Positions 9,941-45,158 of a DNA stretch of 64,000 bases are shown here, piece by piece (the first letter of the stretch is position 1; each line of letters starts with the position of its first letter). Location: contig DASZWD010000004.1 of the NCBI GenBank assembly GCA_035546775.1, positions 1 to 64,000 on the forward strand. Reading direction: 5' to 3'. The notes beneath the pieces are model-generated. The model was not told where the DNA came from, did not search any database, and was given only the letters and a program-made list of their open reading frames with translations. The DNA comes from Acidimicrobiales bacterium (lineage in GTDB: Bacteria; Actinomycetota; Acidimicrobiia; Acidimicrobiales; JACCXE01). The position numbers were made by a program, and so were the translations under genes.

Positions 9941-11716
9941 ATGGGCATCCTGGCGGAGGACATAGCGCGGGTACGCGAGGCGACCGACTTCGTCGCCGTG
10001 GCGTCCGAGCGCATGGCGTTGCGCAAGGTTGGAACGCGGTGGACCGGTCTGTGCCCCTTCCATGCCGAGAAGTCGCCGTCGTTCTCGATCAACCAGGAGT
10101 TGCGCGTCTACCACTGCTTCGGCTGCCAGGCGTCGGGCGACGTCATCACGTTCGTGCGCGAGACCGAACATCTCGACTTCGCGGCGGCCGTGGAGAAGCT
10201 GGCGGCGAAGGCCGGCATCCAGCTGCGCTACGACAGCGGCGGCAACGACGGGGAGGGCCGCAAGAAGCGCGACGCGCTCTACGCCGCCATGGAGAAGGCG
10301 GTCGCCTACTACCACGAGCAACTGCTGACGAGCCCCGACGCCCGCAAGGCCCGCGACTACCTCAAGGAGCGCGGCTACAACTCCAAGATCGCCGCCCAGT
10401 TCAACATCGGCTGGGCGCCCGACGCGTGGGACAAGTTGGCGCGTCACCTCAAGATCACCGACAAGGAACTCACCGACACCGGCCTCGGCTTCGTCAACCG
10501 CGCCGGCAAGCAACAGGACTTCTTCCGGGCGCGCGTCGTGTTCCCGATCTACGACACGTCGGGCCGGCCGGTCGCCTTCGGCGGGCGTGTCCTACCGGGC
10601 TCGAGCGATCCGGCGAAGTACAAGAACTCGTCGGAGACGCCGATCTACTCCAAGCGCCGCATCCTCTACGGGCTCAACTGGGCCAAAGAGGACGCGGTCA
10701 AGAGCGGCGAGATCGTGGTGTGCGAGGGCTACACCGACGTGATCGCCTTCTACCTCGCCGGGGCGCCGCGCGCCGTCGCCACCTGTGGCACGGCGGTCAC
10801 CGAGGAGCACCTGCGCACCCTGCGCGTGTTCGCGCCGCGCATCGTGCTGGCCTACGACGCCGACGCCGCCGGCCAGGCCGCGGCCGAGCGCTTCTACGCC
10901 TGGGAGCGCGACCTCGACTTGTCGCTGCACGTGCTGGCGTTGCCCAAGGGCGCCGATCCCGCCGACCTGGCGCGGCGCGATCCCGCGGCGTTGCGCCAAG
11001 CGCTGAGGGATGCCCGCTCGTTCCTCGATTTCCGCGTGCAGCGCGTTCTCGACGCCAGTGACCTTCGCAGCCCCGAGGGTCGAGCGAAGGCGGCGGAAGG
11101 CGCGCTCGAAATGGTTGCCGAGCACCCAAACGAAACCACTCAGGGCATCTACATCGGAAAGATCGCACAGCAACTCGAGATCCCCGAACCCGTGCTTCTT
11201 GCAAGCTTCAAACGACGCGGCTCGAAGATGGTCGTACCGCCAGTGAAGCCGCGTGTCGTCATCGAAGGCCCCGAGACCGAAGCGCTCAAGGTGGCGATCC
11301 ATCGCCCCGAAGCCGTCGCCGGCAAGCTGCACGAGGTGCTCTTCACCGATCAGGCGCACCACGACGCATTCCTGGCGCTGGCCACGGGCGCGCCCCTCCA
11401 CGAGGCGATCGAGCAGGCACCGCCCGAGGCCGCGGCGCTGCTGCGTCGCTTGGCGGTCGACGACGTCGACGCCGATCCCGACGACGTGCTCGCCGGTCTC
11501 GTGCGCGTCGCCGCCGACGCCGCGGCGGCCCGGCTCAACAAGTCCCTGGCGCAGGGCGCGGACTACGCCGAGGTCGCGCCGACCATCGCGTGGCTCAAGC
11601 AGACCCGCGAACAGCTCCAGGACGACGAACTCCGTTCAGAGGCGACCGTGGCATTGGTAGCGTGGCTGGCGCACGTTGCCGAACCGGCTGAGGACGAAAG
11701 GGGGGAGGACGAATGA
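9941..11716 (+). CDS. dnaG: DNA primase
   Basis: A 591-aa replicative primase that makes RNA primers for the DNA polymerase holoenzyme. The N-terminal zinc ribbon ligands are Cys38, His41, Cys59 and Cys62 (CPFH...CFGC). The TOPRIM core is at about residues 260-330 with [11 protein letters not shown] and the acidic [13 protein letters not shown]. The C-terminal region is the helicase-interacting part and is divergent, as usual. rpoD follows with a 4-bp ATGA overlap, preserving the dnaG-rpoD half of the macromolecular synthesis operon, so primase and the main sigma factor are co-expressed. Confidence 0.96.
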
Positions 11717-13023
11717 GCGACGCATCCATGCCCGTTCCGTCCTTCCCGCTCGACATCCCCGCCGACGAGGTCGAGGCGCTGCTGGCGTTGGCCCGGGTGA
11801 AGGGCGTGCTGTCGTCGGAGGACTTGGTCAGCGCCCTCAAGGACGTCGAGCTCACGCCCGAGCTGATCAACGGCGTCGTGGAGTGGGTCACGAGCGCCGG
11901 CATCCGCTACGAGGACATCGACGCCGTCGATCGCGCCAGCGCCCAGGACGTCCTCACCGAGGAACCGGCGCCCGCCAACGACGCCGTCGTGCGCCAGCTG
12001 CGCGTCGACCGCCCCAAGAAGCCGCGGGCGCCGCGCGCGGCGCGGGGGAGCGCGGCCGACGTCCCCTACGACGACGGGCGCGGCGGCGCCGGCGACCCGG
12101 TGCGCATGTACCTCAAGGAGATCGGCAAGTTCCCGCTGATCACCGGCGAGGAGGAAGTGCGCCTGGCCCAGCGCATCGAGGCGGGCCTCGCCGCCCACAC
12201 GCAACTGGCCGAACTCGACGAGAAGTACGGCGACCGCGCGTCGATCCCGACCGAGGAGCGCCGGCCGCTCGAGCGCACCGTCGCCGACGGCCTCGTCGCC
12301 AAAGGTCAGCTCACCAACGCCAACCTGCGCTTGGTGGTGTCGATCGCCAAGCGCTACCGCAAGGGTGCGATGCAGTTCCTCGACCTGATCCAGGAGGGGA
12401 ACATCGGCCTGATGCGCGCCGTCGACAAGTTCGACTGGACCAAGGGCTTCAAGTTCTCGACGTATGCCACGTGGTGGATCCGCCAGTCGATCACCCGCGC
12501 CATCGCCGATCAGGGCCGCACCATCCGCATCCCGGTGCACATGGTCGAGACGATCAACAAGGTCCTGCGGGTGCAGCGCCAGATGCTCCAAGAGCTGGGT
12601 CGCGAGCCGACGATCGAGGAGCTGGCGACCAAGCTCGAGGACATGTCGCCTGAGAAGGTGCGCGACATCCTCAAGATCAACCAGGACACGGTCTCGCTCG
12701 AACAGCCCGTGGGCGACGAGGACGACTTCTCGCTGTCCGACACGATCTCCGACGACTCGGCCGAAGTCCCCGCCGACTACGCCACCCGCATGATGCTGAC
12801 CGCCGCGGTCACCGAAGCTCTCGACCAGCTGTCGGACCGCGAGCGCGACATCATCAAGCTGCGCTTCGGCCTCGACGGTGGCGAGATGCGCACCCTCGAA
12901 GAAGTGGGCCGCGAGTTCGGCGTCACCCGCGAGCGCGTCCGCCAGATCGAGTCGAAGACCCTCGCCAAGCTGCGCCACCCCATCCGGTCCCAGGGCCTGC
13001 GCGGCTTCCTCGAAGAGGAGTAA
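11713..13023 (+). CDS. rpoD: primary RNA polymerase sigma factor (RpoD/SigA)
   Basis: A 436-aa group-1 sigma factor. A region 1.1-like N-terminus ([17 protein letters not shown]) is present, followed by region 1.2 ([17 protein letters not shown]), region 2 ([27 protein letters not shown] cut here for length: residues about 200-260, including the -10-binding and melting segment [13 protein letters not shown]), region 3, and region 4.2 with the helix-turn-helix [20 protein letters not shown]. The presence of region 1.1, the basic/Ala-rich linker and the dnaG linkage mark it as the housekeeping factor. A second, shorter sigma-70 is encoded at 16358-17308. A long inverted repeat directly after the stop probably ends the operon. 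Confidence 0.95.
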
Positions 13024-14949: not shown

Positions 14950-15693
14950 GTGACGAATGAAGCGCTCCTGCAACTGCTCGACGAGGCCGCCGACGCGGTC
15001 AAGCGCGCCGTCGCCGACCTGACCGACTGGGGTCTCGCCGGCACCCGTGCCGGCCAGTACAAATGCGACCTCGCCGCCGACGCCGCGGTGCTCGACGTGC
15101 TGGCGAAAGGCAACGTCGGGGTGTTGAGCGAGGAGAGCGGGCTCACCGACGCCGACCGCGCCATCGTCGTCGTCGTCGACCCCATCGACGGATCGACGAA
15201 CGCTGCCGCCGGCTTGCCGTGGTTCGCTACCAGCCTGTGCGCCGTCGACGGCGACGGCCCGCTCGCCGCCGTGGTCGTCAACCAGGCAACCGGCACCCGG
15301 TACCGGGCGACGCGGGGCGGCGGGGCGACCGTCGACGGTCAGCCCACCCGGCCGCTGCGCGCCCCCGAACTGGCCGACGCGTTCGTCGGCCTGTCGGGGC
15401 TGCCCGACCACTGGCTCGGTTGGCGGCAGTACCGCTGCCTCGGTGCGGCCGCGCTCGACATCTGCGCCGTGGCCGCCGGCGTGCTCGACGCCTTCATCGA
15501 CTGCACGCCGCGTCCCGCGCACGGCGCCTGGGACTACATGGGGGCGCTGCTCGTGTGTCAGGAGGCAGGCGCGGTGGTTGCCGACCGCTACGGCGAGGAC
15601 CTCGTCGTGCTCGACCACGACGCCCGTCGCTCGCCGATCGCTGCCTCGTCACAGGCCCTGCTCCAACAATGCATAAATTCCCTGAATAAATGA
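14950..15693 (+). CDS. inositol monophosphatase family protein
   Basis: A 247-aa Mg-dependent, Li-sensitive-type sugar phosphatase. Metal-binding residues are visible as EESG (about 60-63), DPIDGST (about 77-83) and the later Asp of WDYMGALLVCQEAGA (about 197). The family includes inositol-1-phosphatase, histidinol phosphatase HisN and CysQ/fructose-bisphosphatase-like enzymes; sequence alone does not choose among them. Mycothiol and phosphatidylinositol synthesis in actinobacteria need such a phosphatase. A weak stem (15701-15718) follows the stop. Confidence 0.88.
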   Translation: MTNEALLQLLDEAADAVKRAVADLTDWGLAGTRAGQYKCDLAADAAVLDVLAKGNVGVLSEESGLTDADRAIVVVVDPIDGSTNAAAGLPWFATSLCAVDGDGPLAAVVVNQATGTRYRATRGGGATVDGQPTRPLRAPELADAFVGLSGLPDHWLGWRQYRCLGAAALDICAVAAGVLDAFIDCTPRPAHGAWDYMGALLVCQEAGAVVADRYGEDLVVLDHDARRSPIAASSQALLQQCINSLNK

Positions 15694-15699
15694 TTGACG
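15694..15699 (+). promoter_or_regulatory. possible -35 box of the whiB7-like leader, next to an AT-rich patch
   Basis: TTGACG is directly preceded by an unusually AT-rich stretch (15671-15693) in an otherwise very GC-rich region. Known whiB7 promoters have an AT-rich WhiB7 site just upstream of the -35 box, so the arrangement suggests autoregulation. No good -10 box could be fixed at 16-18 nt, and a stem at 15701-15718 overlaps the spacer. Confidence 0.3.
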
Positions 15700-15799
15700 G
15701 AATCACGCACATGTGATTGAGTCGGACATCCCCGGAATTTGCTGTCTTCGGGGCCGCCGCGCCCGACCTAACCAAACCATCACGAGGTAACCAATTCCA

Positions 15800-15946
15800 A
15801 TGCTCACTTGGACGATCTGCGCAATTGCAACGGCGACGTACGCCGATGCCACGCGCACGCGCGTCTTCGTGATGCCGTCCATGGGAGACCACAAGGTCAA
15901 TCTCAAGGATGGTGCCGGCCTCAGGGGAGTCCGAAGTTCTGGGTAA
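15800..15946 (+). CDS. upstream ORF (48 aa) in the whiB7-like leader
   Basis: ATG 15800 opens a 48-codon frame ending at TAA 15944-15946, with GAGG at 15784-15787 as a possible ribosome binding site and in-frame ATGs at 15872 and 15881. It lies in the 347-bp gap before the WhiB gene and stops 27 nt before a strong terminator. Its last codons contain GGCCTC (15917-15922), which can pair with GAGGCC (15975-15980) in the terminator's left arm. This is the layout expected of a translation-sensing attenuator, as described for whiB7/wblC leaders. The peptide itself shows no recognised stall motif. Confidence 0.5.
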   Translation: MLTWTICAIATATYADATRTRVFVMPSMGDHKVNLKDGAGLRGVRSSG

Positions 15947-15973
15947 GCAACCCGCAACTTCGTTAGGACCCTC

Positions 15974-16010
15974 AGAGGCCACCGGGAAATCCCGGTGGTC
16001 TCTTTGTTTT
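15974..16010 (+). terminator. intrinsic terminator / attenuator upstream of the whiB7-like gene
   Basis: A 13-bp stem (15974-15986 with 15991-16003, one G-T pair) with an AAAT loop is followed by TTGTTTT. It is the most convincing rho-independent terminator in the window, and it sits 31 nt before the start codon of the WhiB gene, not after a gene. It therefore most likely acts as a conditional terminator. Confidence 0.8.
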
Positions 16011-16040
16011 CCAGCGACGAATCCAAATGGGGGAGTACGG

Positions 16041-16337
16041 ATGTACGAACAATCGCAACAATGGACAGAACCTGAGGCGCCCACCGTCCCGAAGTGCCAG
16101 GACGGCGCAGCCACCATGGTTGGCCTGTTCTTCTCGGAACAACTCGACGACATCGCCACCGCCAAGGCCATCTGCAACACCTGCGCGCTGCAGGAGCGCT
16201 GCCTCGACGGTGCCCTCGCCCGGCGCGAGCCGTGGGGCGTGTGGGGTGGTCAGCTGTTCTTCAACGGCAAGGTCCTCGCGTTCAAGCGGAAACGAGGCCG
16301 GCCGCGCAAGGACGAACAGGTTCCGCTCACCGCGTAG
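16041..16337 (+). CDS. whiB7: WhiB7-like transcription factor with AT-hook
   Basis: A 98-aa iron-sulfur regulator of the Wbl family. The four cluster cysteines are Cys19, Cys45, Cys48 and Cys54; the turn motif GVWGG is at 66-70; and the C-terminus has the AT-hook KRGRPRK (84-90), which is characteristic of WhiB7/WblC. WhiB7 binds region 4 of the primary sigma factor and AT-rich DNA, switching on intrinsic antibiotic resistance and redox genes. ATG 16041 has GGGGGAG about 5 nt upstream. The leader with uORF and terminator matches the known attenuation of whiB7 genes. It is convergent with a sigma-factor gene. Confidence 0.88.
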   Translation: MYEQSQQWTEPEAPTVPKCQDGAATMVGLFFSEQLDDIATAKAICNTCALQERCLDGALARREPWGVWGGQLFFNGKVLAFKRKRGRPRKDEQVPLTA

Positions 16338-16357: not shown

Positions 16358-17308
16358 CTAGCCAGCTTTCCGGGCTCTGGCAGCCGCCAGGGCCTGGAGC
16401 TGGCGCAGGTTCGACGGCGTCGCGGGATGACGCAGCTTCGTCATCGCCTTCGCCTCGATCTGCCGGATGCGCTCGCGCGTCACCTTGAAGCGCTCGCCGA
16501 GTTCCTCGAGCGTGCGCGGCTCGTCGCCGTCGAGACCGAAGCGCAACTCGAGCACCTCCCGCTCGCGCGGGTGCAGCGTCGCCAACGCGATGTGGAGGTG
16601 CATGCGGTCGTCGTCCTGCTCGGCCTCGAAGAAGCCCTTCTCCGATTCCGGATCGGCGACCGTGTCGATCAGCTCGCGGTCCTCGTCCTGGGCGAGCGAC
16701 AGCGACAGCGGGTCGGGCGTGATGCGCTCGGCCGCCGCCACCGCTAGCTCGGTCATGCCGGTGGATTCTGCGATCTCCTGGCGCGTCGGCTCCTTGCCGG
16801 TTGCCTCGCGCAAGGAATTGCGCGCCCGCTCGACCGCCGCTGCGGCGTCACCGACACGTGTCGGCACGCGAATCGTCCGGCTCTTCTCGGCGATGGCGCG
16901 GCCGATGGCCTGTCGGATCCACCACGTGGCGTACGTCGAGAACTTGTAGCCCTTGGTGTGGTCGAACTTCTCGACGGCGCGGATCAGCCCGAGGTTGCCT
17001 TCCTGCACGAGATCGAGCAGTGGCATACCGGCGCGCTGGTAACGCTTGGCGATGTTCACCACCAGGCGCAGGTTCGACACGATGAAGGCCTGCTTGGCGT
17101 CGTCGCCGGCGCGCACTGTCTGGCGCAACCGCCGCTTCTCCGCCGGGGTGAGGGTCGGGCTCTCCAGCGCGGTGATCGCGACCTGGCCCTCCGCGATGAG
17201 CGTCGCCAGGCGGACTTCGTCGGCGGCGGTCAACAGTTGGTGCGCGGCGATTTCGCGCAGGTAGCGACCCACCAGGTCGTCTGCCGCGTCACCCTCTCCT
17301 CGCGCCAT
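16358..17308 (-). CDS. RNA polymerase sigma-70 factor, group 2 (SigB/Hrd-like)
   Basis: A 316-aa sigma factor lacking region 1.1. Region 1.2 (DLVGRYLREIAAHQLLT), region 2 ([40 protein letters not shown]), region 3 (ATGKEPTRQEIAESTGM) and region 4.2 (RTLEELGERFKVTRERIRQIEA) are all present. Its -10 and -35 recognition residues resemble RpoD closely, as in stress/stationary group-2 factors. It is convergent with whiB7 and divergent from a kinase/phosphatase regulator. The start ATG 17308 has the hexamer TACCGT 6 nt upstream. Confidence 0.92.
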   Translation of the reverse strand: MARGEGDAADDLVGRYLREIAAHQLLTAADEVRLATLIAEGQVAITALESPTLTPAEKRRLRQTVRAGDDAKQAFIVSNLRLVVNIAKRYQRAGMPLLDLVQEGNLGLIRAVEKFDHTKGYKFSTYATWWIRQAIGRAIAEKSRTIRVPTRVGDAAAAVERARNSLREATGKEPTRQEIAESTGMTELAVAAAERITPDPLSLSLAQDEDRELIDTVADPESEKGFFEAEQDDDRMHLHIALATLHPREREVLELRFGLDGDEPRTLEELGERFKVTRERIRQIEAKAMTKLRHPATPSNLRQLQALAAARARKAG

Positions 17309-44805: not shown

Positions 44806-44839
44806 TGGTGACGGTGAGTCGACCTGTAAGCGGGATTCT
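44806..44839 (+). repeat. right attachment site within the 3' end of rnpB
   Basis: The 34-bp copy that completes the present rnpB gene. Its base A44822 puts a G-U pair into helix P1 where the left copy would give G-C, so this copy probably came in with the element. Confidence 0.88.
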
Positions 44840-45158
44840 GTCCGCCGTTACCGGCGGGGTGGCCATCCATCTATGCGGCCCACCTGAGGAATAGCTGGGC
44901 CAGCCTCCTCGATTTGGCCTTGCTCCGAGTGGGGGTTACCGAGCCGCCCGGGTCGCCCCGGACGCTGGTGCGCTCTTACCGCACCGTTGCACCCTTGCCT
45001 GTGCCCCGAAGGGCCATCGGCGGTCTGTTCTCTGTTGCCCTGTTCCGACACGTCGCCGCGTCCTGACTCGCATCAGCACCCTGCCCGTTGGAGTCCCGAC
45101 TTTCCTCGACATTCGTTACGAATGCCGCGGCCACCCGGCCGACTCACCGTCGCCCACC
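44808..45158 (-). ncRNA. rnpB: RNase P RNA, bacterial type A
   Basis: The catalytic RNA that removes 5' leaders from pre-tRNA. On the minus strand the 5' part has GAGGAAAGTCGGGACTCC (conserved region I), the middle has the type-A features, and the 3' part has TAGATGGATGGCCACC followed by GACAGAATCCCGCTTACAGG. Helix P1 pairs 45140-45151 with 44810-44821 and continues three more pairs. About 350 nt, normal length; ends are approximate by a few nt. Its 3' end is the integration site of the mobile element to its left. Confidence 0.93.

Follow-up and report, generated by a model that had tools for sequence, protein, structure and literature searches.

The 64,000-nucleotide stretch analysed here (the window) carries a gene for a 98-residue WhiB7-type protein, preceded by a leader that holds an upstream open reading frame (uORF) and two overlapping RNA hairpins (Table 1). 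The four conserved cysteines of the protein lie at residues 19, 45, 48 and 54, followed by a GVWGG motif at residues 66–70 and an AT-hook, KRKRGRPRK, at residues 82–90. The protein scores above the Pfam cut-off for Whib (PF02467), and its top PDB match is M. tuberculosis WhiB7 (7kif, E 3e-18), in an alignment that spans the AT-hook; matches to WhiB1 (E 1e-5) and WhiB3 (E 2e-4) are weaker. A C-terminal AT-hook (KRPRGRPRK) is confined to class V among Wbl proteins (PMC6282962). Six WhiB genes are present in the genome, and only the one in the window encodes an AT-hook, the other five having none. The four cysteines with a G(V/I)WGG motif, the C-terminal AT-hook and WhiB7 as nearest protein, a closeness to WhiB7 over other Wbl proteins that was judged from the PDB E-values, are the sequence features of WhiB7/WblC (class V Wbl), and by sequence the window protein is a true WhiB7. 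Class V proteins hold a [4Fe-4S] cluster and bind region 4 of the primary sigma factor.

Of 296 genomes from the same class, taken to be Acidimicrobiia, 151 contain a relative of this WhiB7 (E <= 1e-10). The closest, L251, comes from the same genus and is identical in sequence to the named record L037; another named relative, L038, is 69% identical, and its annotation as Acidimicrobiaceae is the basis for the class assignment. Within the same taxonomic order, genomes G157, G002 and G027 contain two or three whiB7-like genes, some of them in tandem; at the copies L080, L082, L086 and L090, no terminator was found by the criteria used. An in-frame N-terminal extension of the window WhiB7 to 15909 is disfavoured, because the terminator would then fall inside the coding sequence and because the Shine-Dalgarno sequence fits a start at 16041. 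Two genes for sigma-70-type (RpoD/SigB-like) sigma factors lie near whiB7, at 11713–13023 (+) and 16358–17308 (−), one of them convergent with it; mycobacterial WhiB7 acts by binding the primary sigma factor. Elsewhere in the window, an RNase P RNA of bacterial class A was annotated at 44811–45146 (−) (Rfam, 225.8 bits).

Table 1. Features of the whiB7 locus, with window coordinates and the basis of each assignment.
Feature	Coordinates	Strand	Basis
AT-rich tract AATAAAT, putative WhiB7 AT-hook site	15685–15691	+	conserved core ATAAA 15686–15690
−35 box TTGACG	15694–15699	+	TTGAC conserved in leaders
Probable weak −10, TTGAGT, 17-bp spacer	15717–15722	+	inferred from position only
uORF, 48 codons, ATG to TAA, MLTWTICAIATATYADATRTRVFVMPSMGDHKVNLKDGAGLRGVRSSG	15800–15946	+	frame-keeping indels, conserved position
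NCGCGN element (ACG CGC, uORF codons 18–19), candidate RNA polymerase pause site	15851–15856	+	NCG bias
Antiterminator 5′ strand	15911–15944	+	fold; cognate pairing test, 96 leaders
Antiterminator 3′ strand	15950–15983	+	fold; overlaps terminator left arm from 15974
Intrinsic terminator hairpin, 13 bp, loop AAAT	15974–16003	+	scan, covariation
Terminator U tract TTGTTTT	16004–16010	+	sequence
Shine-Dalgarno of whiB7, GGGGGAG	16029–16035	+	sequence; outside both hairpins
whiB7	16041–16337	+	Pfam Whib PF02467 match, PDB match, AT-hook

A phosphatase-like gene upstream on the same strand ends at 15693, and its TGA stop codon (15691–15693) abuts the −35 box, so that the putative AT-hook site lies inside the 3′ end of its coding sequence. 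Of 117 class leaders, 95 have TTGAC between positions −330 and −130 relative to the terminator. In these 95, the pentamer spanning −8 to −4 relative to TTGAC is 89–97% A/T at its five positions, compared with 20–55% for the bases just outside this pentamer and 20–36% for the three bases between it and TTGAC; the pentamer is placed exactly 3 bp upstream of the box. An AT tract together with TTGNC was present in 103 of 118 class leaders, against 5% of shuffles. The −10 region shows a weak A/T enrichment in the leader alignment, and a consensus scan of the window leader identified no sigma-70 promoter, its −10 being poor. In mycobacteria, an AT-rich motif adjoining the −35 box is required for WhiB7 to activate its own promoter (PMC3905903). 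The original prediction took an AT-rich patch by the −35 box to suggest autoregulation; the pentamer recurs across the class, and because it stands 3 bp from the −35 box and matches the mycobacterial site, autoregulation of WhiB7 is likely here by analogy.

Downstream of the promoter, a 13-bp-stem terminator had been predicted ahead of the WhiB start, and covariation among the leaders of relatives had been named as a check on it. The hairpin is present, with arms at 15974–15986 and 15991–16003 (AGAGGCCACCGGG-AAAT-CCCGGTGGTCTCT), and its region folds at −28.7 kcal/mol (z −4.2), with no shuffle as stable. A scan detected a strong hairpin followed by a U tract in 101 of 135 homologous leaders, a set that includes three loci of other WhiB proteins (L039–L041), whereas a hairpin of any strength appeared in 16% of shuffles; the recurring core reads AGGCCGYCGGG...CCCGGCGGCCT. 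Covariation was assessed with MAFFT and a pair count on 47 terminators, four of them from outside the class. Two-sided changes occurred at 11 of the 13 pairs, 91.6% of cells pair, and cells with two-sided changes numbered 60 compared with 13.5 in shuffles; none of 500 shuffles reached any of the five covariation measures. A pair table anchored on 'GCC' mixed registers and was discarded in favour of this pair count. No Rfam covariance model hit the leader at gathering score, the only matches being at chance level (E 1–2).

The 48-codon ORF proposed ahead of this terminator is likewise found at a conserved position. We required a uORF to have at least 20 codons, a Shine-Dalgarno-like sequence and a stop 12–45 nt before the terminator; 100 of 117 class leaders contain one at this place, compared with 10% of dinucleotide shuffles, and the other 17 had none by these criteria. 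The stops are mostly 23–29 nt before the hairpin, and in the window the TAA at 15944–15946 precedes it by 27 nt. Between the window and its same-genus relative, the uORF differs by indels of 3, 21 and 6 nt, all of which keep the frame. When close relatives were compared in pairs, 19 of the 28 indels within uORFs had a length divisible by three, and substitutions at codon positions 1, 2 and 3 number 85:92:98; the frame is therefore kept while the peptide is largely free to change. These comparisons are evidence, from sequence alignment, that the conserved feature is the frame of the uORF and not its peptide, which is new here.

The 3′ part of the uORF forms one strand of an antiterminator. Its blocks are GGU (15911–15913), GGCCUC (15917–15922), GGGG (15924–15927), GUCC (15929–15932), GAAGUU (15933–15938) and UGGGU (15940–15944). 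The second of these (GGCCTC in DNA) pairs with GAGGCC (15975–15980) in a helix that extends to 15932/15966, with an extra outer pairing of GGU with ACC (15981–15983) and inner stems of 15933–15938 with 15956–15961 and 15940–15944 with 15950–15954. A single long hairpin of −39.2 kcal/mol (z −3.9), more stable than any shuffle, is formed by the region 15905–15985, and the uORF stop codon lies at the apical loop of the antiterminator (15911–15983). The pairing of GGCCTC, continuing to 15932, with the left arm of the terminator was found as the original prediction gave it and extends further. When the 3′ portions of the uORFs from 96 non-redundant leaders were paired with terminator arms, cognate pairs reached −28.1 kcal/mol, compared with −23.5 kcal/mol when arms were permuted (z −14; 0 of 2000 permutations); for the window uORF the cognate arm came fourth among the 96, and a decoy segment further upstream showed no cognate preference in the same test. 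GAGGCC and ACC serve in both the antiterminator and the terminator. The expectation of mutually exclusive hairpins holds for the GGCCUC/GAGGCC and GGU/ACC pairings and has to be relaxed for the inner hairpin (15924–15973), which can coexist with the terminator.

The conservation of these elements, seen in the covariation of the terminator, the position of the uORF and the cognate pairing of the antiterminator, excludes chance. A terminator that merely serves the upstream phosphatase-like gene, beside a fortuitous uORF, would fit the position and strand of that gene; a conserved promoter nevertheless separates the gene from the hairpin, and the uORF position, the antiterminator and its cognate pairing are retained in genomes across the class, so that the comparative data contradict this explanation and leave it a negligible chance. 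Control of translation, with the leader hiding the whiB7 ribosome-binding site, has in its favour that hairpins do exist upstream of the start codon. It is nonetheless highly improbable: the Shine-Dalgarno sequence lies outside both structures, and a U tract directly follows the conserved hairpin.

The competition between the two structures was explored in a fold model in which a ribosome was represented by a mask. With the mask on the stop codon, the terminator had a probability of 1.0 once fully made, and with the mask at codon 20 the antiterminator reached 0.68; with the mask at codon 5, the terminator was still at 0.99 once the whole of it was made. Before the right arm was made, the antiterminator stood at 0.98–0.99 when the ribosome was absent or stalled early, and a ribosome on the stop codon alone left a 6-bp outer helix in place. 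The codon-5 result and this persistent outer helix mean that the static fold model is not quantitative. Over the whole region, the terminator state (−53.7 kcal/mol) is 3.6 kcal/mol more stable than the antiterminator state (−50.1 kcal/mol), which means that antitermination has to be under kinetic control, as it is in other attenuators, and the outcome will be decided by folding during transcription.

We consider it very probable that the whiB7 leader is a ribosome-controlled transcription attenuator with positive autoregulation; the sequences show its elements, how well these are conserved and the competition between the two hairpins, and from there we infer termination, a response to ribosome stress and the autoregulatory loop. 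RNA polymerase would start just downstream of 15722 and transcribe the uORF. In unstressed cells, the trailing ribosome would reach the stop codon at the apex of the antiterminator and melt that hairpin; the left terminator arm would then be released to pair with the right arm, and transcription would end at about 16004–16010. The trigger would be a slowing or halt of uORF translation within about the first 32 codons, caused by ribosome-targeting drugs or by amino-acid shortage. On such a stall, 15911–15944 would pair with 15950–15983 ahead of synthesis of the right arm, pre-empting the terminator and allowing whiB7 to be transcribed. The AT-hook of WhiB7 would then bind the AT tract at 15685–15691 and, together with the primary sigma factor, boost its own promoter and those of resistance genes. 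The Shine-Dalgarno sequence of the window uORF, GAGG, is 12 nt from its ATG, and we counted this against the attenuator, together with the poor −10 and the 17 class leaders that lack a uORF.

The uORF could instead sense one charged tRNA, for example that for alanine or threonine, rather than translation stress in general. Alanine makes up 14% of uORF residues in the class and 6 of the 48 codons in the window, and starvation for alanine is another signal that induces mycobacterial whiB7 (Poulton 2024, cited in PMC13236596 and PMC11550727). The uORFs contain no run of a single codon at a fixed place, however, and the equal substitution over codon positions implies that no residue run is kept, which makes such an amino-acid-specific attenuator unlikely. 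It overlaps with general attenuation, because any stall would work.

A second specific signal might reside in the arginine codons of the uORF. Arginine occupies one aligned column in 93% of 79 uORFs and recurs at +2 in 17 of 52 (p 6e-5), and the window has R-T-R at codons 19–21, which would suit a drug-specific arrest peptide whose R-x-R (of the macrolide +x+ type) stalls the ribosome. The second arginine is nevertheless missing from most uORFs. In addition, the codon before the arginine is NCG whatever residue it encodes (Ala, Pro, Thr or Ser): before CGN, NCG and other NCN codons stand at 37:2 at this place and at 415:761 elsewhere in uORFs (p 1.6e-14). NCG being kept at the wobble base whatever the residue, selection here acts on nucleotides. 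With the uORF peptide unconserved and substitutions equal over codon positions, an arrest peptide is weakened as the main sensor, and we regard it as decidedly improbable.

The resulting element, NCGCGN, is found 54 nt (IQR 53–56) after the uORF start, at codons 14–24 across the class uORFs, and its distance from the −35 box varies widely. No consistent pairing partner for it was identified upstream or downstream in the leaders, and an unseeded motif search in the uORFs returned nothing useful; with a seeded motif, 50% of held-out uORFs scored above the 95% shuffle level. In an alignment on the arginine codon, which was thus itself selected for Arg codons, G is found at −10 (81%) and −2 (84%), with C at −1 and G at +1 and no G at −11. 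The first four of these agree with core positions of the E. coli elemental pause consensus. The reading of NCGCGN that we favour, though at well below even odds, is a site where polymerase would pause to await ribosome loading, synchronising transcription with translation as in the trp leader. We found no mention of the element in the literature covered, from which Lee 2022, the primary paper on wblC riboregulation, was missing.

For Mycobacterium and Streptomyces, whiB7/wblC attenuation is established (PMC4128351, PMC11550727, PMC13236596): a uORF that is translated to its end brings about termination, and one whose translation is impeded allows read-through. The window leader belongs to these known uORF attenuators as far as sequence can define them, every sequence-level trait having been found: a class V WhiB7 product, an ORF ahead of an intrinsic terminator with conserved frame and position, a mutually exclusive antiterminator (folds and cognate pairing) and an AT-rich site by the −35 box (A/T positions). 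The same design was searched for in Actinomycetia, here the inferred class of the mycobacterium-like genome G364 and its relatives. Mycobacteria and streptomycetes both belong to Actinomycetia. Of 93 leaders, 86 had a terminator whose 5′ arm contains GCC, and 79 combined such a terminator with a uORF ending about 12–31 nt before it; none of 1000 permutations reached the cognate pairing. NCGCGN was not clearly seen there, with a mild excess at a similar distance. The attenuator thus appears, from these leaders, to be common to Acidimicrobiia and Actinomycetia. The original prediction had seen a fit to the ribosome-stalling control of mycobacterial and streptomycete whiB7 in a more distant lineage; the class-wide conservation of the architecture and its presence in Actinomycetia agree with this, and stalling by antibiotics would be the expected input. 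What is new is the reach of the attenuator across the class, the conservation of frame rather than peptide and, possibly as a new sub-feature, NCGCGN.

The occurrence of the same design in both classes points to an attenuator that dates back to their split. The leader should switch on whiB7, the antibiotic-stress master gene, when protein synthesis stalls, and it places drug-sensing whiB7 control in a little-studied actinobacterial class known here mostly from metagenome-assembled genomes. Two questions become testable: whether the uORF, with its frame kept and its peptide free, monitors translation itself, and whether timing is set by a polymerase pause built into the leader. Conservation of the leader can further help to locate whiB7 regulons in environmental genomes.

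The window leader shares with the attenuators of whiB7 in Mycobacterium and wblC in Streptomyces a long leader, a uORF, an intrinsic terminator and an antiterminator, and with mycobacterial whiB7 an AT-rich site by the −35 box (PMC3905903). In Actinomycetia, too, GGCC opens the left arm of the terminator, and uORF stops are mostly placed 20–27 nt ahead of it. The terminator core of the class, in contrast, is usually GGCCGCCGGG (GGCCACCGGG in the window) and not GGCCGCGGA or GGCCACGGA, and the class uORF usually has about 50–65 codons (48 in the window), whereas that of Actinomycetia is often longer. In trp-type leader attenuators, too, the position of the ribosome on the leader ORF picks one of two exclusive hairpins; the whiB7 leader differs in having no regulatory codon run and in targeting an antibiotic-stress transcription factor instead of a biosynthetic operon. 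The uORF attenuators of ABC-F and erm resistance genes resemble it in their input: drug-impeded translation of the leader ORF causes antitermination there (PMC12421871), as would be the case here. Those systems, however, control one resistance gene through very short or arrest-specific leader peptides, whereas the window uORF has 48 codons and an unconserved peptide and controls a regulator.
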